In this document: positions 12,082 to 34,143 of the stretch, in pieces
Position numbering within the stretch: the stretch's first letter is position 1
Layout: the number at the start of each line of letters is the position of its first letter
From: Phycisphaerae bacterium
Lineage (GTDB): Bacteria > Planctomycetota > Phycisphaerae > Sedimentisphaerales > Anaerohalosphaeraceae
Length of the DNA: 53,323 bases
NCBI GenBank assembly: GCA_018052735.1
Contig: JAGPMT010000017.1
Coordinates: forward strand, 1-53,323
Direction: 5' to 3'
Notes under the pieces: model-generated
Seen by the model: the letters and a program-made list of their open reading frames with translations, nothing else
Told to the model about the DNA's origin: nothing
Databases searched by the model: none
Position numbers and translations under genes: made by a program

Positions 12082-12118
12082 AAGAGGCGGCTGGAATGCA
12101 GCCGCCTCTTCTTTTTTT
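12082..12118 (+). terminator. Rho-independent terminator of ilvD
   Basis: Perfect 12-bp stem: AAGAGGCGGCTG (12082-12093) and CAGCCGCCTCTT (12099-12110) with a GAATG loop, followed by C and seven T (12112-12118). It lies 33 bases after the ilvD stop. On the - strand only a TTTT run follows the stem, so its effect on the convergent metallothionein-like gene is weaker. Confidence 0.93.
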
Positions 12119-12154: not shown

Positions 12155-12475
12155 TTAAGCGGCCTTTTTACAGCCGGCGCCGGTTTTAGGGCAGCCGTTT
12201 TGGCCTTTGCCGCACTTGCCGTCAGAACAGCTGCAAGTACCACACTTGCAGGTTTCGCATTTGCACGAATCGCCGCATGAACCCGCCTTGCAGGTGCAAT
12301 CCGTGCATTGACAGTCGGCACAGCATTTACCCTCGGCGGGCGCCTGCGTGCAGCAGCTTGCCATAGCCGATGCCGCTGTCGATTCACTATGCGAGACAGC
12401 AGGGGTACCGGAAAAAGCAAACAAAATCCCGGCCGCAATTGTTAACACCACGATTGAAATGATTATTTTATTCAT
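12155..12475 (-). CDS. Exported metallothionein-like cysteine-rich protein
   Basis: 106 residues. The first 25 form a signal peptide or membrane anchor (MNKIIISIVVLTIAAGILFAF), then a short Ser/Ala linker, then about 60 residues holding 18 cysteines in C-C, C-x-C and C-x2-C spacing (for example CKCETCKCGTCSCSDGKC) with Lys, Gly, Asp and almost no aromatic residue. That composition is what metallothioneins use to bind soft metal ions (Zn, Cd, Cu) by thiolate clusters. Known bacterial metallothioneins such as SmtA are cytoplasmic, so export is odd. Ribosome site AAAGGT precedes the ATG. It sits 75 bases downstream of another exported Cys-rich gene, probably one transcript. Metal and fold are inferred. 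Confidence 0.75.
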   Translation of the reverse strand: MNKIIISIVVLTIAAGILFAFSGTPAVSHSESTAASAMASCCTQAPAEGKCCADCQCTDCTCKAGSCGDSCKCETCKCGTCSCSDGKCGKGQNGCPKTGAGCKKAA

Positions 12476-12550
12476 AGTATCTACCTTTCAGTTTGATTGG
12501 AAAAAATTTGATATTTTTTAACAACAAAAACAGATCAGTGATGGATAATA

Positions 12551-12946
12551 TCAACAATTCAGCTGGCAAATCCTCTCTTGTATTGATGCATTGCAATATG
12601 GCAGTACAGAGATAACAGAAGGGAATTCTATTTCGAGGGTCCCCAACGCAGGAAGCATTTGAAGATCCAGTGCTGTTGGGTGTATAGCTGGAGGTTCAAA
12701 ATTTAAGGGGGAAACCAGCCAATCACAGCATGTCTGAGTACAGGACATAGCACAGCAGCAATTGACAGAATATGAAGAACTTTCCGAAGATTGCCGGCCA
12801 GAACAGCAGGAATCTGATTGCTCAGAAACCTTGCTTTTTAAGCTGAAATCAGAAATGCTGCAGTGGCATAAATGCTGTTTTGCAACAGGAAGCACCGCAA
12901 CTGCTAACAAACCGGCCCAAAAACCTATATATCGCTGGATATTCAT
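12551..12946 (-). CDS. Exported cysteine-rich protein of unknown function
   Basis: 131 residues, not recognised. A hydrophobic N-terminus (YIGFWAGLLAVAVLPVA) looks like a signal peptide. The next stretch has clustered cysteines (CHC at about 27-29, CC, CCC, C, CC) in a Ser-rich background, and the C-terminal half is hydrophobic/Pro-rich with three more cysteines (YCNAS, ERICQLNC). The cysteine clusters and the neighbouring metallothionein-like gene suggest a shared role in metal binding at the cell surface or periplasm. No transporter or metal sensor is adjacent. The ATG at 12946 has only a weak upstream purine tract. Reality of the gene is supported mainly by its signal peptide and Cys pattern. 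Confidence 0.55.
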   Translation of the reverse strand: MNIQRYIGFWAGLLAVAVLPVAKQHLCHCSISDFSLKSKVSEQSDSCCSGRQSSESSSYSVNCCCAMSCTQTCCDWLVSPLNFEPPAIHPTALDLQMLPALGTLEIEFPSVISVLPYCNASIQERICQLNC

Positions 12947-15258: not shown

Positions 15259-15711
15259 TTGAACAATACATGGTATTCATCGGGTTTGCGGTTTGAGTGT
15301 GTCGGGTGCGGGGGATGCTGCGCAGGGCCGGCGGAGGGGTATATCTGGGTGAGCAAGCCGGAGATAGAGTTTCTGGCACGGCATCTTGGCCGGTCTGTGA
15401 AGGATTTTAAGAAGATGTATCTGAAGCGGATTGGACTAAAATACAGTATCCGGGAAGACCCGCTTACGAAGGACTGTGTTTTTCTTGAGATGGTCAGCAA
15501 CGGCTGCCGCAGCTGTGCTGTTTATGCGGTCCGTCCGAACCAATGCCGCACATGGCCATTCTGGTCATTTAACCTGCACAGCCCCGAGCAGTGGGAGATG
15601 GCGGCGCAGCGGTGTCCGGGGATCAACCGGGGACGGCTTTATACGGCTGAGGAGATTGAAGCGATAAAAAATCAGCAAACATGGTGGGATAATACTATCA
15701 AAAAACAGTAA
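15259..15711 (+). CDS. YkgJ-family cysteine-cluster protein (first of a pair)
   Basis: 150 residues. The N-terminal C-x2-C-x2-C-C signature (CVGCGGCC at about 14-21) and downstream cysteines (DCVFLE, GCRSCAVYAVRPNQCRTWPFW) define the YkgJ / zinc- or iron-chelating domain family, thought to bind a metal or Fe-S centre; biochemical role unknown. The only in-frame start that keeps the first Cys cluster with some leader is the TTG at 15259, so the start is uncertain; no ATG is available in this frame before the cluster. Followed 47 bases later by a related gene. Confidence 0.82.
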   Translation: MNNTWYSSGLRFECVGCGGCCAGPAEGYIWVSKPEIEFLARHLGRSVKDFKKMYLKRIGLKYSIREDPLTKDCVFLEMVSNGCRSCAVYAVRPNQCRTWPFWSFNLHSPEQWEMAAQRCPGINRGRLYTAEEIEAIKNQQTWWDNTIKKQ

Positions 15712-15758: not shown

Positions 15759-16190
15759 ATGCATAAACAGTTAATAGAAGAGGTTGCAGCAATTTACCGG
15801 CGGCTGGACGAGCAAACAGCCCCTTTGGCAGGCGGCTGCACAGCCTGCGGGGAGTGCTGCGATTTTGAGCGTTTCGGACATCGGCTGTATGTAACAACGC
15901 CTGAGCTTCTGTATTTTGGATATTTTGCCCGGCAGCCGATACAGGAAATGAATGGCGGTATTTGCCCTTACCGCATCAGCGGAAAATGCAGCGTTTATCC
16001 GTATCGTTTTTCCGGCTGCCGCATTTTTCAGTGCAGACAAGATAGTCAGCAGCAGCAGAACACTATCAGCGAACAGACAGTCCGCCAATTGAAGACACTA
16101 TGCACCCACTATAGCATTCCTTATCATTATGTTTACCTGCAGGCCGGATTGAAAATGCTGCGGACAGGGATGCTGCCGGAGCAGCTGTAA
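15759..16190 (+). CDS. YkgJ-family cysteine-cluster protein (second of a pair)
   Basis: 143 residues with CTACGECC (about 28-35), then ICPYRISGKCSVYPYRFSGCRIFQC, the same pattern of C-x2-C-x2-CC followed by C-x5-7-C-x-x-Y-x-x-R-x-x-x-C seen in YkgJ proteins. It differs from its neighbour in length and sequence, so this is an old paralogue or a second lineage member rather than a recent duplication. Starts at the ATG at 15759, about 20 bases after a GGAGGGGG tract (15731-15738), somewhat far for a ribosome site. Convergent with the helicase gene; only 36 bases separate the stops and no terminator is visible. Confidence 0.82.
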   Translation: MHKQLIEEVAAIYRRLDEQTAPLAGGCTACGECCDFERFGHRLYVTTPELLYFGYFARQPIQEMNGGICPYRISGKCSVYPYRFSGCRIFQCRQDSQQQQNTISEQTVRQLKTLCTHYSIPYHYVYLQAGLKMLRTGMLPEQL

Positions 16191-25907: not shown

Positions 25908-25942
25908 AACCCGCCGGAAATCAATAACCGGCAGGTTTTTTT
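25908..25942. terminator. Bidirectional terminator between pfp and the pil operon
   Basis: AACC-C-GCCGG (25908-25917) pairs with CCGGC-A-GGTT (25928-25937) with one internal mismatch. Seven T (25936-25942) follow on the + strand and five T (25909-25905) on the - strand. It lies between convergent stops at 25851 (pfp) and 25941 (last pil gene), so it can serve both. Confidence 0.85.
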
Positions 25943-26462
25943 ACAGGTTGCGCCGTACCAATGCGGCGGCGGCAAGGGTTTTAGAGACTTTGCCGGCATC
26001 ATCGGTTACAGTCATCACGATTCGGACATCCCGAATGCCGGTAAAGGTAGTCATACCGCCGGCGCCATTGTCGCGTTCGACTTGGCATTCGGTACGAGAG
26101 AAGGTCATCGCTGCTACATGTCCGCACAGGGCATAGCTTTGCCCGGTGCTATTGTCATCGTAATAAAGCGTACTGTCATCGGCATTAAAACGATAGGTAA
26201 TATTTTTGCCGTCGCGGGTAACCAGACTGACTTGTGTGGCAGGTTCATCAGCAATAAGGGCAACAGCATTGGCTGTGCGGATATCGTTTGTTATGCGCAG
26301 CAGAGCGGCCCGCGCGGTGTTGACGGTCTGGTAAATTCCCTGGTTGGTCTGATAATTTTTAACCGACGCATCAAAAGCCAAAGCGGCTGCTGTTGTCAGC
26401 ATTGCCAGAATAACCAGCGCCATCAGCACCTCAATGATGGTAAATGCGGTTTTCTTCTTCAT
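25941..26462 (-). CDS. Prepilin-like protein (minor pseudopilin, GspJ/PilW-type size)
   Basis: 173 residues with an N-terminal class III signal: MKKKTA then FTIIEVLMALVILAML, in which the fifth residue after the cut is the conserved Glu. The residue before the predicted cleavage is Ala instead of the usual Gly. The globular part (about 40-170) is beta-rich with ITNDIRTANAVAL and YRFNADDSTLYYDD, resembling minor pseudopilins of type II secretion/type IV pili. Follows the other prepilin gene by 10 bases. Likely part of a pilus tip or pseudopilus; exact class is a guess. Confidence 0.8.
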   Translation of the reverse strand: MKKKTAFTIIEVLMALVILAMLTTAAALAFDASVKNYQTNQGIYQTVNTARAALLRITNDIRTANAVALIADEPATQVSLVTRDGKNITYRFNADDSTLYYDDNSTGQSYALCGHVAAMTFSRTECQVERDNGAGGMTTFTGIRDVRIVMTVTDDAGKVSKTLAAAALVRRNL

Positions 26463-26472
26463 ACATCACTCG

Positions 26473-26907
26473 CTAATTCAGACGAGCCCGAACCCAGCTT
26501 GTTGAGCTGATAGGCACATTGTTTTTGTAGATTGTTACGGTCAGGCGAATAAAATCGGTTGGCGAGGAGGAGACCTGCGTCAGATTGCCGGGCTGCAGAT
26601 AATCTGCATCGATTTTCTGAATAAATTCCGAAAACTCCGGCAGGGTGTTGCCTGCGGCATCTTTAGGAGGCCCCCAAGCCACATCATCCAGCGATATCAA
26701 TCCGTCAATGGTCACTTCCGGCCGGGTGGTCATTTCTCGCACTTGTTCAATAAGAAATTCAGCAGTGGATAAGTCTACACCGTAACCGTTTGCCACAGTA
26801 AATGCCCCGCTGGCGGCGACCAGCGCCACTACAACCAGCCCTATCAGCATAGCGGCAAACAGGGCTTCCAGCAGGGTAAAACCTCTGTATTGTCTGTATG
26901 TTTTCAT
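26473..26907 (-). CDS. Prepilin-like protein with type IV signal
   Basis: About 144 residues. Signal MKTYRQYRG/FTLLEALFAAMLIGL: Gly before the cut, Phe after it, Glu at +5, then a hydrophobic helix. The remaining 110 residues have no family I can name. The ATG at 26907 is preferred over an in-frame TTG at 26913. About 100 bases separate it from pilC upstream; PilV/GspI-type minor pseudopilins have a similar size. It is too atypical to call a major pilin with confidence. Confidence 0.78.
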   Translation of the reverse strand: MKTYRQYRGFTLLEALFAAMLIGLVVVALVAASGAFTVANGYGVDLSTAEFLIEQVREMTTRPEVTIDGLISLDDVAWGPPKDAAGNTLPEFSEFIQKIDADYLQPGNLTQVSSSPTDFIRLTVTIYKNNVPISSTSWVRARLN

Positions 26908-27007
26908 AATCAATGCCCCGTTATTTGGCGCAGATTATCCCTGGATTCAGGAACAGCCCGCTGTGCACCTGTCCCTTTGCTCTGCGGATAATCTGCGGTT
27001 TTGGGTT

Positions 27008-28177
27008 TTATCCGACAACACTGGACATCTTGAAAATGGGCAGAATAATGCTCATTGCAATAAAGCCGACCAGCACACCCATTACCACAATCATCAGGGG
27101 CTCAATCATACTGGTGACCGTTTTAATAACCGTCTTGAGCTCACGGGCATAGAATTCAGAAATATCCCGCAGGACATCACCCAAAGTTCCCGATTCTTCG
27201 CCGCTTTGAATCATCTGAACAACATTGGCGGGCATCAGGGCATAATTGCCCAGCGAGGGGGCGATTTTCTTGCCTTGGCGCACTTCTTCAAAAACACCTT
27301 TCCACATATCCTCAAACAGCACATTGCCTGATATATGGGCTGTAATAGACAGTGTATCCAGAATCGGCACACCCGCATTGGTCAGCACACCCATCGTATG
27401 GAGACCCCGTGTGATATACAGACTGCGGCACAGTGTTTTAAGAAGCGGAAGACGCAGTTTGGTTTTGTCCCACCAGTATTTTCCGACTGTTGTCTTGCTG
27501 GTAAAATACCAAAAGCCCATCAGTGCAGCACCAATGCCCGGAAATACGAGAAACCAGTAATTGCGCATCACCATACTCAGGGCCATAATCACTTTGGTTG
27601 GCCCCGGCAGGAGGTGTTCCTTGCCGGCAAACACCACCAAAAATCGAGGCAGCACAAATGTCAGAAGAAAGGTTACGCAGACGATTGCCATCGTTGCAAT
27701 AATTCCGGGATAGACCATTGCACTGATAACCTGACTGCGGGTTTCCGCTTCCTGATCAAGGTATTCCGTGAGGCGCTGGAGCATTGAACTCATTGAACCG
27801 GAGATTTCTGCCGCCGCCACCATATTGATATACAGGTTTGAAAAAACCTCCGGATGGGCGGCCAGGGCCTGTGAAAAGCTTTGTCCGCCTTCGATGCGTG
27901 CCTTTAAATCCAAAACAACATAGCGGAACTTTTCTTTGGCAATCTGGGTGCCGATAGACTCGAGGGCATCCTGCAGACTGATGCCCGCCCGAACCATAAC
28001 AGCCAGCTGGTTGGTAAAATTCAGAATGTCTTTCTTGCTCGGCCCAAAATCGATGTGAAATCCGCCTTTGTGTGCAACGCCGGCTGAAGTCGAGGCAATT
28101 GCAGCCGCCACATGCTGGCTGCGCTGGAGTCCTTTGGCTTTGGTGTCCTGCGGTTTGAGCTTTTCAAGCAATGACAT
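27008..28177 (-). CDS. pilC: Type IV pilus / type II secretion platform protein (PilC/GspF)
   Basis: 389 residues, inner-membrane platform on which the pilus motor acts. Two T2SSF domains are seen: about 50-175 (FTNQLAVMVRAGISLQDALE, IEGGQSFSQALAAHPEVF, MVAAAEISGSM) and about 255-380 (RGLHTMGVLTNAGVPILDTL, IAPSLGNYALMPANVVQMI, SGEESGTLGDVL). Three membrane segments lie at about 170-195, 215-240 and 360-385. GGGAG precedes the ATG. 18 bases downstream of pilT, in the order pilB-pilT-pilC that is standard for type IV pili. Confidence 0.93.
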   Translation of the reverse strand: MSLLEKLKPQDTKAKGLQRSQHVAAAIASTSAGVAHKGGFHIDFGPSKKDILNFTNQLAVMVRAGISLQDALESIGTQIAKEKFRYVVLDLKARIEGGQSFSQALAAHPEVFSNLYINMVAAAEISGSMSSMLQRLTEYLDQEAETRSQVISAMVYPGIIATMAIVCVTFLLTFVLPRFLVVFAGKEHLLPGPTKVIMALSMVMRNYWFLVFPGIGAALMGFWYFTSKTTVGKYWWDKTKLRLPLLKTLCRSLYITRGLHTMGVLTNAGVPILDTLSITAHISGNVLFEDMWKGVFEEVRQGKKIAPSLGNYALMPANVVQMIQSGEESGTLGDVLRDISEFYARELKTVIKTVTSMIEPLMIVVMGVLVGFIAMSIILPIFKMSSVVG

Positions 28178-28195
28178 AGAGCGTCTCCCTTAGCA

Positions 28196-29284
28196 TCAGA
28201 CCTGTTCCTGCAGAGCGCCTTGCGGTGTTGCAGGAAGAATTTTTTCCATTTTGCCGGGGTTCGTCGCACGAATAATAGCTTCATCCCGGTCAATATATCC
28301 CTTGATGTACATCTGCTGGATGCTGTGATCCATCGTCTGCATACCCAAGCGGCGTGAGGTTTCAATGATATTGGGAATTTCATAAATCCGGTTTTCACGG
28401 ATGCAGTTGCGGACGGCGGAGGTGCACAGCAGGATTTCTGTGCAGGGGACCATGCCGGGCTGATCAACGCGGCGGAACAGCGTCTGGGAAATAACCGCCT
28501 GCAGGGTATTGGCCAGCATCGCCCGAATCTGATTTTGCTGGCTGGGCGGATACACGTCGATGATACGCTCGACCGTCTGCGAGGCGTTGATGGTATGCAG
28601 GGTACTGAGCACCAGATGGCCGGTCTCGGCTGCAGTGATTGTAGAACTGGTCGTTTCAAGGTCGCGCATTTCGCCGACCAGAATAATATCCGGGTCCTGA
28701 CGCAGCGCATGGCGAAGGCCGGAGGCAAAAGACGGACAGTCCGAGCCGATTTCCCGCTGCTCAATCATACACGATTTGTTTTCCATCAGATATTCAACAG
28801 GGTCTTCCAGCGTAATAATACGCTTGCGGTACTTGCGATTGATTTCATTAATCATCGATGCCAGCGTGGTGCTTTTGCCTGAACCGGTATGCCCTGTCAC
28901 CAGCACCAGTCCGCGGGGCAGATCGGTCAGCTCCTTAACCACCTCGGGCAGGTGCAGGTCTTCGATATCCGGTATGCTGTTGGAGATGGCACGAAATGAG
29001 AGGGCAAAGGTTTCCTTCTGAAAATGAGCATTAACGCGGAACCGGCTGCCGTCCTCAATCATTGTCGAAAAATCCCAGTCGCGCTTTTCCAGAAAGAGTT
29101 TGAATTTATCCTCGCCTATCATTTCGAGAATCATCCGGCCGGCATCCTCATTGGACACTTCGGGCAGATCCATCATAATCAGTTCTGTGTTGATGCGCAT
29201 AATGGGAGGCATGCCCACATTGATATGCACGTCGGAAGCACTGTTCTTGATAGCAGCTGCCAGCATTTGTTTTGTATCAATCAT
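28196..29284 (-). CDS. pilT: Type IV pilus retraction ATPase PilT
   Basis: 362 residues, hexameric cytoplasmic ATPase that depolymerises pili (twitching). N-terminal SASDVHINVGMPPIMRI; Walker A GHTGSGKST (about 130-138); Asp box EDPVEYL; Walker B-like RQDPDIILVGEMRD; His box TAAETGHLVLSTLHT; and the retraction-specific C-terminal motif AVRNCIRENRIYEI, corresponding to A-I-R-N-L-I-R-E in PilT. The last motif separates it from PilB/GspE. A strong ribosome site (GAGGAG) precedes the ATG. Implies that the operon makes a retractable pilus rather than only a secretion system. Confidence 0.95.
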   Translation of the reverse strand: MIDTKQMLAAAIKNSASDVHINVGMPPIMRINTELIMMDLPEVSNEDAGRMILEMIGEDKFKLFLEKRDWDFSTMIEDGSRFRVNAHFQKETFALSFRAISNSIPDIEDLHLPEVVKELTDLPRGLVLVTGHTGSGKSTTLASMINEINRKYRKRIITLEDPVEYLMENKSCMIEQREIGSDCPSFASGLRHALRQDPDIILVGEMRDLETTSSTITAAETGHLVLSTLHTINASQTVERIIDVYPPSQQNQIRAMLANTLQAVISQTLFRRVDQPGMVPCTEILLCTSAVRNCIRENRIYEIPNIIETSRRLGMQTMDHSIQQMYIKGYIDRDEAIIRATNPGKMEKILPATPQGALQEQV

Positions 29285-29330
29285 AATTCAACTCCTCAAT
29301 AATCTGTGCCTTTCCATACACCCCCGGCTC

Positions 29331-31187
29331 TCACACCGCAACAGCATCGCCCTGTTTTTTTTCGCCGGCCGCCGCAGGGTCCAGGGCATCCGCTACTTCG
29401 GCCACGCGGAGCACCTCCTCAATCGTCGTAATGCCCTGCTTGACTTTCTGCAGTCCGTCTTCAAACAGATTCGGCCACCCGCTCCGGCGGAAGGCCTCAC
29501 GCATACTGTTGACCGAAGAATCGGTATTGATAATGCGGCGAAACTCATCATCGACAATCAGCAGTTCGTGAATGCCGCAACGGCCTGCATAACCGCTGTT
29601 TCGGCACTGGTCGCAACCCCTGCCGTGCATCAATTCGTGGGGCTCAATGCCGGCTATATCGAGATATTTCTGCAATCCTTCGGGGGCCGCAAACGGCTCT
29701 TTGCAGTTATTGCAGATGCGCCGCACAAGCCGCTGGGCTAAAATGCCGTTCAGCGAGGCGGCAATCAGATAGGGCTCGATGCCAATATTAACCAGCCGTG
29801 AAACACTGCTGGGGGCATCATTGGTATGCAGCGTGCTGAGCACCAAGTGGCCGGTTAAAGCGGCCTGGACGGCTATGCGAGCTGTTTCCTGGTCACGGAT
29901 TTCGCCCACCATAATAATGTCCGGATCCTGACGCAAAAGAGACCGCAGGGCTGCCGCAAACGTCAGGCCGGCTTTTTCGTTGACCTGAACCTGATTGCAG
30001 AATTCAAGATTATACTCTACCGGATCTTCGACCGTGGACACATTCAGCCGGTCACTGTCCATCTGGGCCAGTGCTGAATACAGGGTGGTGCTTTTGCCCG
30101 AACCGGTGGGACCGGTAACCAGCAGGATGCCATGCGGTAGAGCAATCTGTTCCTGAAACGCTTTTAGGATGCGGGGCTGCATCCCCGACTTTTCCAGACT
30201 AATCATGATGCTTTTGCTGTCCAGCAGACGAATCACAACTTTTTCGCCATGGCATGTCGGCAGAACGGACACGCGCAAGTCTACTCCGCGGCCGCCCATA
30301 ATCACAGCAATCTTGCCGTCCTGCGGCACCCGGCGCTCGGAGATATCCAGATTGGCCATAATTTTCAAACGCGAGACAATTGCAGGATGCATGCGCGACG
30401 GAGCCTGTTTGATATCAAACAGAATACCGTCAATGCGGTAGCGTATCTTGGTGTATTTCTCTTTGGGTTCGATATGGATATCACTGGCTCCTTCGTGCAG
30501 AGCATTGCTCAGCAGAAAATTCACAAACTTGATAACCGGCGACTGGCCGGCACTCTTTTCGAGGTCCTCAACTTTTTCTTCGGTATCCTGCACCAGCTCG
30601 ATATCTTCCATCGCGAATTCCTCGACGCTGCAGTCAAATTTGCTCTCGTCGAATTCGCTGCAGACAGCCTCGATATCTTCGGCGGGACACACTACCACAT
30701 CTACCGGTTTACCTGTCTGCCTTTTGACATCATCGATAGCGAAAACATTGGATGGCTGGGTTGTTGCCACTACCAATGTTCCGTCTTCTCGGAAGCGGAC
30801 CGGCATAATCTGCTGACTTCGGATGGCACTGATTTCCAGCAGTTCAAACGCCTTTTTGTCCACATCCTGCGGTGCAATCCGCTCAAAGGCATAGCCGTGC
30901 AGTTTAGCTTTCGCAGCTAAGATTTGCTCGGCGGTAATGCCGCGCTCTGCCAGCAGTTTCTCCAGTTCGCCGCCGGCCTGCTGGTCTTGACGAATCTGAT
31001 CCAGCGCACCCAGCGTCAGAATCTCATCTTCTGCCAGAATATCGGCAATATCCCGCAGACGGGTTTGGGTCGTTATCTGCGGGCTGTACAAATTCTGCAA
31101 GCCCGGCGCCAAATCAGTCTGTCCGGAATCCAGCTCCAGCAGAGCCGCAGCTTGCGGCTGCACTTTTTTTCCAAAAATACGCTTCAT
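29331..31187 (-). CDS. pilB: Type IV pilus assembly / type II secretion ATPase PilB/GspE
   Basis: 618 residues. N-terminal MshEN-type domain (about 50-190; LAERGITAEQILAAKAKLHG), then an acidic linker, then the GspE core: GASDIHIEPKEKYTKIRYRIDG, Walker A GPTGSGKSTTLYS (about 358), EDPVEY, RQDPDIIMVGEIRD, ALTGHLVLSTLHTNDA, and the zinc tetracysteine CNNC ... CDQC (about 510-545). Extension motor of the pilus or pseudopilus. Its ATG at 31187 overlaps the TGA of the pilP-like gene (ATGA), so the two are translationally coupled. Confidence 0.95.
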   Translation of the reverse strand: MKRIFGKKVQPQAAALLELDSGQTDLAPGLQNLYSPQITTQTRLRDIADILAEDEILTLGALDQIRQDQQAGGELEKLLAERGITAEQILAAKAKLHGYAFERIAPQDVDKKAFELLEISAIRSQQIMPVRFREDGTLVVATTQPSNVFAIDDVKRQTGKPVDVVVCPAEDIEAVCSEFDESKFDCSVEEFAMEDIELVQDTEEKVEDLEKSAGQSPVIKFVNFLLSNALHEGASDIHIEPKEKYTKIRYRIDGILFDIKQAPSRMHPAIVSRLKIMANLDISERRVPQDGKIAVIMGGRGVDLRVSVLPTCHGEKVVIRLLDSKSIMISLEKSGMQPRILKAFQEQIALPHGILLVTGPTGSGKSTTLYSALAQMDSDRLNVSTVEDPVEYNLEFCNQVQVNEKAGLTFAAALRSLLRQDPDIIMVGEIRDQETARIAVQAALTGHLVLSTLHTNDAPSSVSRLVNIGIEPYLIAASLNGILAQRLVRRICNNCKEPFAAPEGLQKYLDIAGIEPHELMHGRGCDQCRNSGYAGRCGIHELLIVDDEFRRIINTDSSVNSMREAFRRSGWPNLFEDGLQKVKQGITTIEEVLRVAEVADALDPAAAGEKKQGDAVAV

Positions 31188-31840
31188 TGTTCCATCTTCA
31201 ATAAAATAGGCACGCCTTTATAATCCAGCAGAACGGTCTTGTTCTCTATGGATTTGACGGTCATCTCACGAAAGGTGTCGCCGACATACAGCACCTTATC
31301 ATTAATCATACAGCACATTCCTTTGGGAGTTGCGGTAATGCTCCACAGTTCCAGACCCATCTGGAGACGGTTGGCTTCCTCGCGCAGGCGCATCTGCTGC
31401 TGAGCATACAACGCATCGGAATCGGGCGCATCAGCCGCAAAATCCAGTTCTCGCCGGAAGGGATTCTTTTTCAGCTCATCCACACCAACCTGATCAATGT
31501 TGGAAAACTGGTAAAACCGCCCAACCACCGAATTCATCTGTGAATTCACTTCGCTCTGCATCGCATTCAGCTGGGCTAAAGCAGCATCAAGCTGGGTTTG
31601 GTCCTGACTGGCAGCGGCTTCGGCCGAGGCAGGGGCTGTTTTTTTAATCATAAACCAAACGGCCAATGCCCCGACTGCAAAGACTGCTATCAGCAGTATT
31701 GTGCTCTGCCGCACTTTTCTGCCGTGACCGGAAACTGTCAGATAGTCCGCAGGCCGGCTGGCTGTATCCGGGCTTTGCGCCGCCTGCTGGGCCTGCTCCA
31801 GAACCGGCGACTGACTTCCGTCTTTGAGGTAATTTAACAT
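31184..31840 (-). CDS. pilP: PilP/GspC-like inner-membrane alignment protein
   Basis: 218 residues from the ATG at 31840, which has a good AAGGAG site; a longer open frame upstream would overlap pilO and is rejected. Cytoplasmic N-terminus of about 45 residues, one membrane segment (ILLIAVFAVGALAVWFMI), a short coiled-coil-like region, then a C-terminal beta domain with KKNPFRRE (the N-P-F motif common in PilP/GspC) and VLYVGDTFREMTVKSIENKTVLLDYKGV, the homology-region type fold. Classical PilP is a lipoprotein; this one has a membrane helix and so is more GspC-like. Role: linking PilN/PilO to an outer-membrane pore. Confidence 0.72.
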   Translation of the reverse strand: MLNYLKDGSQSPVLEQAQQAAQSPDTASRPADYLTVSGHGRKVRQSTILLIAVFAVGALAVWFMIKKTAPASAEAAASQDQTQLDAALAQLNAMQSEVNSQMNSVVGRFYQFSNIDQVGVDELKKNPFRRELDFAADAPDSDALYAQQQMRLREEANRLQMGLELWSITATPKGMCCMINDKVLYVGDTFREMTVKSIENKTVLLDYKGVPILLKMEQ

Positions 31841-31871
31841 AACGATTCTCCTTGACTGTACAGTAAAGGGT

Positions 31872-32402
31872 TCAGGCCGCACTCTGGAAGAAAATGCTCA
31901 TCACAAATGTCGCTTCTGTCTGACCTTCCTGTTTGCTTTTCTTAAGCGTCAGCTCGCGAATCTTGGTAATGCGGTCCAGTTTCTCAAGTTCCAGAAGAAA
32001 CGCATAGTACGAGTTGAAATTGCCGTGCAGTTCCATCGACAGCGGCTGCTCGATATAGCCGCGGTTCTGGCGGTTTTTGAGGGTGCGAATCGCCTTCGGG
32101 GTTAATCCCTGCCGCTGGGCAATCAGGGTTACATTTTCCAGCACAGTATGAATTTCGCTGCTGGGAGGCAGCTTGCTTTCAAAAGCGGCAATGGCTTCTT
32201 CGATTTTCTGAAGCTGAACATTGAGGTCCTGTGCCGTTGCCGTCGCCCGCTCTAGTTCGTTGAGCTTTGCCTGCAGGGCTTCCATCTTGGCCCGTTCTTG
32301 TGTCAGATGGGCATTGGCCGGCTTAATCATATACGCCCAAGCCACATACGAGAGTCCGACAATCAGCACAAAAAAGATTAAATAGCGAATCCCGCTGTTC
32401 AT
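31872..32402 (-). CDS. pilO: PilO-like pilus alignment protein
   Basis: 176 residues: one N-terminal membrane helix (YLIFFVLIVGLSYVAWAYMI), a coiled coil (about 30-80; ERAKMEALQAKLNELERA) and a ferredoxin-like C-terminal domain (about 95-175; SMELHGNFNSYYAFLLELEKLDRI, which matches the PilO G-x-Y-x-x-l-l-x-F-l pattern). Forms the inner-membrane alignment complex with PilN. Between pilN and pilP, the standard order. A GGAA-type ribosome site is present. Confidence 0.88.
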   Translation of the reverse strand: MNSGIRYLIFFVLIVGLSYVAWAYMIKPANAHLTQERAKMEALQAKLNELERATATAQDLNVQLQKIEEAIAAFESKLPPSSEIHTVLENVTLIAQRQGLTPKAIRTLKNRQNRGYIEQPLSMELHGNFNSYYAFLLELEKLDRITKIRELTLKKSKQEGQTEATFVMSIFFQSAA

Positions 32403-32436
32403 TACAAGGTTCCTTTCGAATAAATCGCTTATCCGC

Positions 32437-33147
32437 TTACATCAGCTGATTCCGTTTTTCACGGATCGAGTCAATATCCTCTTTGGTCAGGGTCAGGCCG
32501 GGTTTAAGGGCGGCTTTGAGCCGAAATTCGCGCATCCTGATTTTGTCTATTTCCACTTCCTTGGATTCAACCAGCGAAACAGCATCAAATAAAATCGAGC
32601 TGCTCAGCCGCGCAATGAAGCCGGCCACCTGAATATCGCTGGGCGCCAGACCTTTAATGTCGAGGTTCGTTTCGATACGAACTTGAGGCTGGTCGGTCGG
32701 CTCGGATTTGGCTGTGGCAGCCGCCCGCTGATACTGATTGCTGCCGGCCGGTTTGGCTGGTGATGGACGGGCTGTCTGAACTTCTTTTTCCTCCAGCTTG
32801 AATTCCGTCAGGGAGACGCCCGAAGGCAGGTTGTTGGTCAGAGACGCCAATATTACACTGCGGGGAACAGGTTCCAGCAGTTCGGCGGTCATCACCATTG
32901 TTTTCATCATGGTTTTGCTTTTGGCCTTCAGCTCTTCCAGCTGGGCAATCTGCTGCTGGGCCTTGGCCATTCGTTCATTGAGCTGAGCCAGCTCGGCCTG
33001 CACAGCCCGCTGACGCATCTTGATGAAGCCGAATGTAATGCCGATAGCACCAAGCATAGCCATCAGCAGCATCAAATACAGAATATTTGCCCGGCTGGCA
33101 CGCCGCTGCTGTACATAATCATCTGGAACAAAATTAATAGTTGCCAT
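32437..33147 (-). CDS. pilN: PilN-like pilus alignment protein
   Basis: 236 residues. The short cytoplasmic N-terminus ATINFVPDDY corresponds to the I-N-L-L-P motif of PilN that docks on PilM. One membrane helix follows (ILYLMLLMAMLGAIGITFGFI), then a coiled coil (about 50-90; AELAQLNERMAKAQQQIAQL) and a PilN-type domain with PRSVILASLTNNLPSGVSLTEF. A Pro/Ala/Gln insert (about 128-155) breaks the periplasmic domain. AGGAA precedes the ATG; 18 bases after pilM. Confidence 0.88.
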   Translation of the reverse strand: MATINFVPDDYVQQRRASRANILYLMLLMAMLGAIGITFGFIKMRQRAVQAELAQLNERMAKAQQQIAQLEELKAKSKTMMKTMVMTAELLEPVPRSVILASLTNNLPSGVSLTEFKLEEKEVQTARPSPAKPAGSNQYQRAAATAKSEPTDQPQVRIETNLDIKGLAPSDIQVAGFIARLSSSILFDAVSLVESKEVEIDKIRMREFRLKAALKPGLTLTKEDIDSIREKRNQLM

Positions 33148-33165
33148 AATCGTATTCCTATCTGA

Positions 33166-34143
33166 TTAACTTAATCCTTCTAAGCTCAGCCCGAAGGCTG
33201 TTGCCCAGTCTACCCGGCTGTTCCGCCGGTCAATAAGACACTGGGGCGTTTGGTTTATCTCAATGGCACTGGTAACATCACCTACCTGTGCAGGAATCTG
33301 CATCCGGCGAGCCAATTCAGCAAACCGGTCGCAAAGCGTGCGGCTGGCGCCGGATCCGGCCAGAAAGACCAGCCGCTCTATCCGAGCACCCGAAAAACTT
33401 TCCTCAAAATACCGAACACAGGCATCCAGTTCTGACAGCAAACGCTGCAGCATCTGGGTCTGCTCAAGCTGGGCATATCCGATTGAAATAGCACGGGCAA
33501 ACAGCAGATTTGCCCCGCGGGTTATGACCACATTGCTATGGGAAGTGCCGACGGTCAGCAACAGCGCGATAACATTCTGCTCGTTGCTGCGGCGGCAGAA
33601 AAACTTGGAAAAGCTTGTAATCATGGCCGTCGGCCAGATACCGATTTTGCTGACTTCCAGTCCGGCGGCTTCGTAAATCGCAAGATGACGATTCACTGCT
33701 TCACGGTTAACTGCTATAGTCAAGATATCTGCGCTGTCCGAAGGGGCTCTCTCGGTCGGCTCGGCCACTATATACTGAAACAGAGCATCATTAACCGGAA
33801 ACGGCAGACGCTTCTGGAGTTTAGGCGGTATTACTTCATCGAGCCGATCCACGGTCGTACGCGGCACCTTCACCGGATCGATAAACAAATCATCCGTCGG
33901 CAATGCTGTGATAACCTCTTTGCCTTTGAACTGCCCTTCTCGCATGAGGGAGCGAACAGTATCTACTGCCCAGTGCTGCCAGGCGGGACTGCGAAACTCA
34001 ATGTCGGCAGGGACAGCACGCAAAGTGGCACTGTGCAGATAGAGTCCGTTTCCATTCCTGCCAATCTGCACCATCCGCAAATAGCCACTGCCCATATCGA
34101 CGCCGATGGGGCAGGTTTTTTTGCTGTTAAATCCTAATACCAT
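33166..34143 (-). CDS. pilM: PilM-like actin-fold pilus assembly protein
   Basis: 325 residues, actin-like ATPase of the FtsA group, cytoplasmic, binds the PilN N-terminus. The first phosphate loop region is PIGVDMGSGYLRMVQI (about 12-27). Further PilM-typical stretches are VITALPTDDLFIDPVKVP, LPFPVNDALFQYIV, ADILTIAVNREAVNRHLAIYEAAGL, VGTSHSNVVITRG and LVFLAGSGASRTLCDRF. First gene of the pil operon; AAGGA precedes the ATG at 34143. No clear promoter was identified in the 484 bases upstream. Confidence 0.9.
   Translation of the reverse strand: MVLGFNSKKTCPIGVDMGSGYLRMVQIGRNGNGLYLHSATLRAVPADIEFRSPAWQHWAVDTVRSLMREGQFKGKEVITALPTDDLFIDPVKVPRTTVDRLDEVIPPKLQKRLPFPVNDALFQYIVAEPTERAPSDSADILTIAVNREAVNRHLAIYEAAGLEVSKIGIWPTAMITSFSKFFCRRSNEQNVIALLLTVGTSHSNVVITRGANLLFARAISIGYAQLEQTQMLQRLLSELDACVRYFEESFSGARIERLVFLAGSGASRTLCDRFAELARRMQIPAQVGDVTSAIEINQTPQCLIDRRNSRVDWATAFGLSLEGLS

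Follow-up and report, generated by a model that had tools for sequence, protein, structure and literature searches.

A candidate copper-sensing leader protein encoded ahead of a putatively exported metallothionein-like protein in planctomycetes

Results

Two cysteine-rich genes on the minus strand

The window (the whole stretch of DNA that was analyzed, 53,323 nucleotides from a Phycisphaerae bacterium) contains two small, adjacent genes on the minus strand, ORF-A first and ORF-B after it. ORF-A (12946..12551) encodes a cysteine-rich protein of 131 residues and 13 cysteines that is predicted to be exported and is proposed here to be a metal-sensing leader; 31 relatives of it were found. ORF-B (12475..12155) encodes a metallothionein-like protein of 106 residues, also with predicted export. 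The intergenic region (12476..12550, minus strand) is 75 nt long and holds a Shine-Dalgarno (SD)-like AGGTAG for ORF-B (12486-12481, minus strand). A sequence-only reading of the window had described open reading frames at 12155-12475 and 12551-12946 that share one direction and are 75 bases apart, and this is borne out, the strand being minus; the plus strand carries stop codons throughout both stretches.

The pair is flanked by ilvD, which is convergent with it, and by a metallophosphoesterase gene, which is divergent, and neither a pump nor a metal sensor is among the annotated neighbors. Between ilvD and ORF-B lies a palindrome with a 12-bp stem (12082..12110), which was scored as the terminator of ilvD (plus strand), the T run on the minus strand being the shorter one. 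The upstream sequence revealed neither a recognizable promoter nor a metal operator, and the promoter scan was at chance level. The single Cu P1B-ATPase of the genome is encoded on a different contig, and a search for CusA in this genome gave nothing above the curated cut-off.

Elsewhere in the window, two cysteine-cluster proteins are encoded side by side about 2.3 kb from the pair and on the opposite strand (15259-15711 and 15759-16190, plus strand); the product of the first is a CxxCxxCC protein (PF03692, putative zinc- or iron-chelating). A cluster at 25941-34143 (minus strand) resembles, by eye, a type II secretion or type IV pilus system, with a PilC-like protein, pseudopilins and two ATPases (29331-31187 and 28196-29284).

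ORF-B resembles a metallothionein

Hydropathy places a hydrophobic core at residues 4-15 of ORF-B, preceded by basic and no acidic residues. All 18 cysteines lie between residues 41 and 102, a stretch of 62 residues (12170..12355, minus strand), in five CxC and two CC motifs, in keeping with the 18 cysteines in about 60 residues, with C-x-C and C-C spacing behind a signal or anchor, that had been reported from the sequence. From residue 41 on, 18 of 66 residues are cysteine, and the cysteine-rich part contains no histidine and no aromatic residue. The dense CxC and CC thiolates and the scarcity of aromatics by which metallothioneins are recognized are both found in ORF-B. Pfam and NCBIfam, metallothionein models included, gave no family for ORF-B, and solved structures gave nothing at E<=1; two ORF-B relatives matched PF00131 (Metallothio) weakly (best E 0.0031). 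High cysteine density and CxC/CC spacing are common to ORF-B and the metallothioneins (PF00131; bacterial SmtA and PmtA), whereas ORF-B differs from them in its predicted export signal, in matching none of the models and in the absence of histidine from its cysteine-rich part.

Judged by these features, ORF-B appears to be an exported metallothionein-like protein that should soak up metal. It has a likely role in copper buffering in common with the Csp copper-storage proteins, to whose helical bundle it shows no resemblance and to which it is unrelated in sequence. The sequence-only reading placed the described bacterial metallothioneins in the cytoplasm, which was too strong, since PmtA has been reported at the surface of Pseudomonas aeruginosa (PMC11237414). 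The metallothionein-like ORFs found downstream of ORF-A relatives at four other loci (L114, L046, L120 and L073) contain 14 to 36 cysteines, differ greatly in length and have little in common except their position. The spread in length and cysteine number of the exported metallothionein-like proteins suggests repeat expansion.

Anatomy and relatives of ORF-A

ORF-A begins with a signal or anchor segment (residues 1-25; 12872..12946, minus strand), in which hydropathy finds a basic n-region and a hydrophobic core at residues 11-22 (AGLLAVAVLPVA, at residue 11), and which is a helix in AlphaFold models. Its cysteines are grouped as CHC (27-29), CC (47-48), CCC (63-65) and CC (73-74), clusters that had been read correctly before, and as a C-terminal C127/C131, which had been missed. 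The CxC formed by C63-C64-C65 (12752..12760, minus strand) lies 69 residues before the C-terminus, and the protein ends in the motif QERI-C-QLNC-stop (12551..12580, minus strand), with a cysteine at position -5 from the stop. Pfam and NCBIfam gave no family for ORF-A.

Matches to the ORF-B sequence were obtained in only three of 59 related genomes, each with an ORF-A-like gene just upstream; ORF-A diverges much faster and was therefore matched by plain sequence search in the window's own genome only. Searching 396 genomes of the class with a profile yielded nine clear ORF-A genes, each followed by an ORF-B-like gene, and the relatives found across the phylum make, with the window's own protein, a set of 32. 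The order A then B is kept in 17 genomes, which upholds the expectation that the pair is conserved side by side in planctomycetes. The genomic setting of the pair varies (a rimO/ksgA interval in one genus, a helicase and a NAD-synthase-like gene in another, ilvD here) and its distribution is patchy; nine further members of the window's genus, several with incomplete genomes, gave no match to ORF-B. A scan of the genome collection for named organisms returned a single locus, in an uncultured Phycisphaerae bacterium, and tblastn of plasmids with an ORF-A relative as the query returned none. Most relatives are in draft genomes, and several of their neighbor genes were identified from translations alone. 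Weak profile matches with E>1e-3 (e.g., L012-L014, L017-L021, L030-L041, L045, L047 and L048) were rejected as chance, from reading of the ORFs or from poor scores. No description of an ORF-A-type family was found in the literature searched.

Comparison of sister genomes reveals purifying selection on both genes, with dN/dS of 0.21-0.37 for ORF-A and 0.05-0.23 for ORF-B. Every cysteine is retained among G032, G025 and G061 (11/11 in ORF-A, 19/19 in ORF-B) and between G907 and G703 (14/14 and 17/17); the more distant pair G035 and G392 retains 8 of 14 in ORF-A and 20 of 22 in ORF-B. Within G032, G025 and G061, which belong to one genus, ORF-A compared with that of G061 is 29-33% identical in the middle and 67-80% identical over the last 15 residues.

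A conserved C-terminal motif at a fixed distance from a CxC

The end of ORF-A follows the pattern [Q/R]xxL-C-x-[W/F/L]-x-x-stop, most commonly in the form Q-x-x-L-C-[VIR]-W-[RL]-x-stop. The cysteine at -5 from the stop is present in 32/32 proteins, a figure partly favored by the search, since the profile included the C-terminus and so favors members that carry the motif; six lineages found purely by adjacency to ORF-B are less biased, and the chance of one all-cysteine column among them is about 1e-5. W, F or L occupies position -3 in 29 of the 32 proteins and Q or R position -9 in 26. The ORF-A encoded in the window ends in ICQLNC, a divergent version of this motif that lacks the tryptophan.

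The last CxC and the C-terminus are separated by 69.5 ± 2.2 residues in 28 ORF-A proteins, and the distance from the start to the CxC is 88.7 ± 28.9 residues. The CxC-to-end distance is unchanged in 20 non-redundant proteins, and the mean identity of the linker is 9%. Four relatives (G016, G035, G392 and G700) have no CxC some 70 residues before the C-terminus; G016, G035 and G700 have another cysteine pair or a CxxC near that position. AlphaFold predicted ORF-A to be unfolded from its N-terminal helix to its C-terminal helix, with a mean pLDDT of 45 in one model and of 60.6 overall, about 50 in the middle, in the other, which was built from 32 sequences. A linker that is kept in length and not in sequence matches what is predicted of a ruler in a nascent chain. 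In a folded domain, sequence conservation would be expected.

The same data bear on the most serious rival explanation, that ORF-A is an accumulating extracytoplasmic metallochaperone with a CusF-like role, which would pass metal to ORF-B or to a Cus pump and whose C-terminus would be part of a metal site or a docking tail. ORF-A is cysteine-rich and predicted to be exported, it adjoins metal sinks and pumps, and the cysteine and tryptophan of its conserved C-terminus could bind Cu(I); CusF binds Cu(I) through Met, His and Trp. However, a linker of fixed length and unconserved sequence, and the lack of a predicted folded domain, argue against a metallochaperone, and we consider this explanation rather unlikely.

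Genes downstream of ORF-A

The gene next after ORF-A encodes an exported metallothionein-like protein in 17 of 32 cases, and in most of the others it is of a copper type (CusBA efflux pumps, YHS/TRASH proteins or a copper-storage-like protein). ORF-A heads a CusCBA efflux operon in G459 and a CusBA operon in G431, the pumps matching TIGR00914 with 768 and 821 bits. Pfam identified a CusB with a heavy-metal-binding domain after ORF-A in G886 and an RND pump in G1033, and CusB/CusA were recognized from translations in G997, G904, G594, G633 and G1066b. YHS/TRASH-domain protein genes follow ORF-A in G850 and G1015, and a Csp-like copper-storage gene (PDB 5fig, E 4.9e-5) takes the place of ORF-B in G1008; G874, G1051 and G1066 stay outside this classification. 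These partners point to copper as the probable metal. ORF-A is always upstream of the metal gene, which is a further argument against the metallochaperone.

ORF-A relatives that share the C-terminal signature lead Cus operons, YHS/TRASH genes and a Csp-like gene, so a self-contained copper-responsive operon is a likelier description of the pair than, as the sequence-only reading had it, two genes outside any metal-resistance locus. That reading took both products for extracytoplasmic metal traps. Such a view, in which ORF-A and ORF-B each serve simply as an exported trap for metal or as a thiol buffer, constitutive or under transcriptional control and merely co-transcribed, agrees with the predicted export and cysteine content of both proteins and with their adjacent, same-strand genes. 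It seems distinctly improbable, given that ORF-A also precedes unrelated metal genes and that a trap would need neither the fixed C-terminal register nor the ruler of ORF-A. A trap still appears apt for ORF-B, as a prediction, but not for ORF-A, whose relatives bearing the same signature lead copper-type genes. Likewise, the remark that no pump or metal sensor is near stands for the annotated neighbors, but ORF-A itself is the likely sensor.

In three of the loci (L115, L117 and L123), a small protein resembling, by eye, an S23-type four-helix bundle (SHRDLIVYQKSFAAGKRIFELSR...) is encoded after the cusB-like gene. It sits before cusA where the sequence extends to that gene, and a position between cusB and cusA, seen here in planctomycetes, is unusual for such a protein.

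The RNA between ORF-A and the next gene

The gap between A and B is 66-96 nt in most pairs. G032, G088, G016, G035 and G907 show complementarity between the first 15 nt beyond the ORF-A stop and the SD of the following gene, stronger than for any other segment of the gap. This specific complementarity test was devised after a test of overall SD accessibility and was then re-run on other segments and loci; it gave a Fisher value of 1.9e-5 over 11 lineages, 6.9e-3 to 8e-5 with twelve other choices of segment, and 0.008 in a second set of 12 loci, in which G700, G1033 and G594 carry the signal. Overall SD accessibility was significant only in G025, G061 and G088 (0.066 in G032). No SD-hiding arm after the stop was detectable in the window (p ~0.5), and such an arm is also absent in G210, G685, G794, G459 and G431. 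For the SD core in the window, the predicted pairing partner is bases 11-17 downstream of the ORF-A stop, with occlusion no greater than in shuffled gaps. An RNA arm is therefore supported in part of the ORF-A family, and the window lies outside that part.

Anti-SD arms that begin directly after the ORF-A stop, as in G032, G088 and others, are also what plain translational coupling would produce, ribosomes that end ORF-A opening a hairpin over the start of ORF-B with no sensing of metal. Coupling of this kind would leave the invariant C-terminal Cys/Trp motif and the CxC ruler unexplained, and neither the window nor five other lineages have the arm; we regard coupling alone as highly improbable. 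That the complementarity begins right after the ORF-A stop in several lineages also speaks against the metallochaperone.

The A-B gap of three loci (L003, L004 and L010) contains a long hairpin, with TTCGTT..CTTTC right after the stop and GAAAGGAACGAACC ahead of the start. Its arms are almost unchanged despite near-saturated synonymous sites.

Discussion

The well-studied copper-sensing nascent proteins are CutF and CruR only. CutF, from the cutFOG genes of Rhodobacter capsulatus, is a small exported protein encoded directly upstream of a copper-detoxification gene and has been studied experimentally (PMC9973294). ORF-A, for which hydropathy predicts export, shares with CutF a cysteine metal motif, a conserved C-terminal motif and a copper-detoxification gene downstream; the RNA stem over the downstream SD of CutF has a counterpart in some lineages of the ORF-A family, and neighbors such as OEP and CusB/CusA are common to CutF-like proteins and the ORF-A family (PMC9973294). 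Among the features that define CutF-like proteins, ORF-A has the cysteine metal motif in its mature part (as CC, CC and CxC) and the same-strand metal-homeostasis gene immediately downstream. CutF-like proteins have a proline-rich C-terminus, a CxxxC and DUF2946, whereas the ORF-A of the window has none of these, carries a CxC and a different C-terminal motif, and is planctomycete. The DUF2946 model (PF11162) matched none of the 32 ORF-A proteins at E<=1, nor that of the window at E<=10, and PP is absent from the last 15 residues of the latter, which ends YCNASIQERICQLNC. We do not place ORF-A in the CutF-like/DUF2946 group, since it neither matches the model nor carries the C-terminal PP. The survey of CutF-like proteins required PP in the last 15 residues (PMC9973294), and so the ORF-A family would have been passed over.

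CruR of Bordetella pertussis (DUF2946), also studied experimentally, is an upstream ORF that heads a copper operon; it has a CXXC, a 45-residue spacing and RAPP, functions without a signal peptide and represses with copper through Rho (PMC9426467). CruR and ORF-A both head copper-type operons with a fixed spacing from cysteine motif to C-terminal motif, but the CXXC, 45 residues and RAPP of the former stand against a CxC some 70 residues before the C-terminus, QxxLCxW and downstream detoxification genes in the latter. CopL is a metal-binding regulator upstream of a copper oxidase and does not act in trans (PMC9973294). The CopL family (NF033807) resembles the proposed ORF-A in being a metal-binding regulator ahead of a copper gene; its model was matched weakly, far below certainty, by one of the 32 ORF-A proteins (E 0.0049) and not by that of the window. 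According to PMC10987492, translation arrest had not been demonstrated for CutF or CruR.

On balance, we favor the view that ORF-A is an undescribed type of exported copper sensor, one that acts as a nascent chain in the manner of CutF and CruR and would control ORF-B in cis, the pair forming a small copper-response operon. The relatives carry the proposed leader ahead of copper-detoxification genes, so ORF-A probably turns ORF-B on with copper outside the cell. The sequences show how the pair is laid out, that ORF-A keeps its ruler and C-terminal motif, that it keeps company with copper-type genes and that RNA pairing occurs in some lineages; export, metal binding, stalling, copper specificity and the direction of regulation are inferred, as follows. 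ORF-A would be a cis-acting leader that senses metal during its own synthesis. Its signal would deliver the nascent chain to the Sec translocon, and with the C-terminal motif at the peptidyl-transferase center, the CxC some 70 residues back would lie just across the membrane. The ribosome tunnel holds about 35 residues and the translocon about 30; as a distance of about 70 residues approximates to tunnel plus Sec translocon, the CxC would emerge outside during translation of the C-terminal motif. Metal on the CxC would hold the chain, and the ribosome may stall or linger at the LCxW-type motif or at the stop codon. Parked there, it would, in several relatives, sit over the RNA arm by which the ribosome-binding site of the detoxification gene is otherwise concealed, and that gene would be translated. 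Beyond the cytoplasm, ORF-B would use its 18 thiolates to chelate metal, with Cu(I) as the most likely ion.

A wider claim is advanced more tentatively, with slightly less credence than its converse: ORF-A may be the first of a planctomycete-wide family of nascent-chain sensors for extracytoplasmic copper, with a CxC about 70 residues before a new arrest motif, QxxL-C-[VIR]-W-[RL]-x-stop, as its ruler, and would turn on the genes for exported metallothioneins, Cus pumps and copper stores. Another family, to all appearance unrelated, in which the C-terminal cysteine is invariant and the CxC-to-end length fixed, would be a clean and testable model for a ribosome that reads metal beyond the membrane. 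For planctomycetes, ORF-A suggests a route by which exported metallothioneins and Cus pumps may be controlled without a nearby transcriptional sensor.
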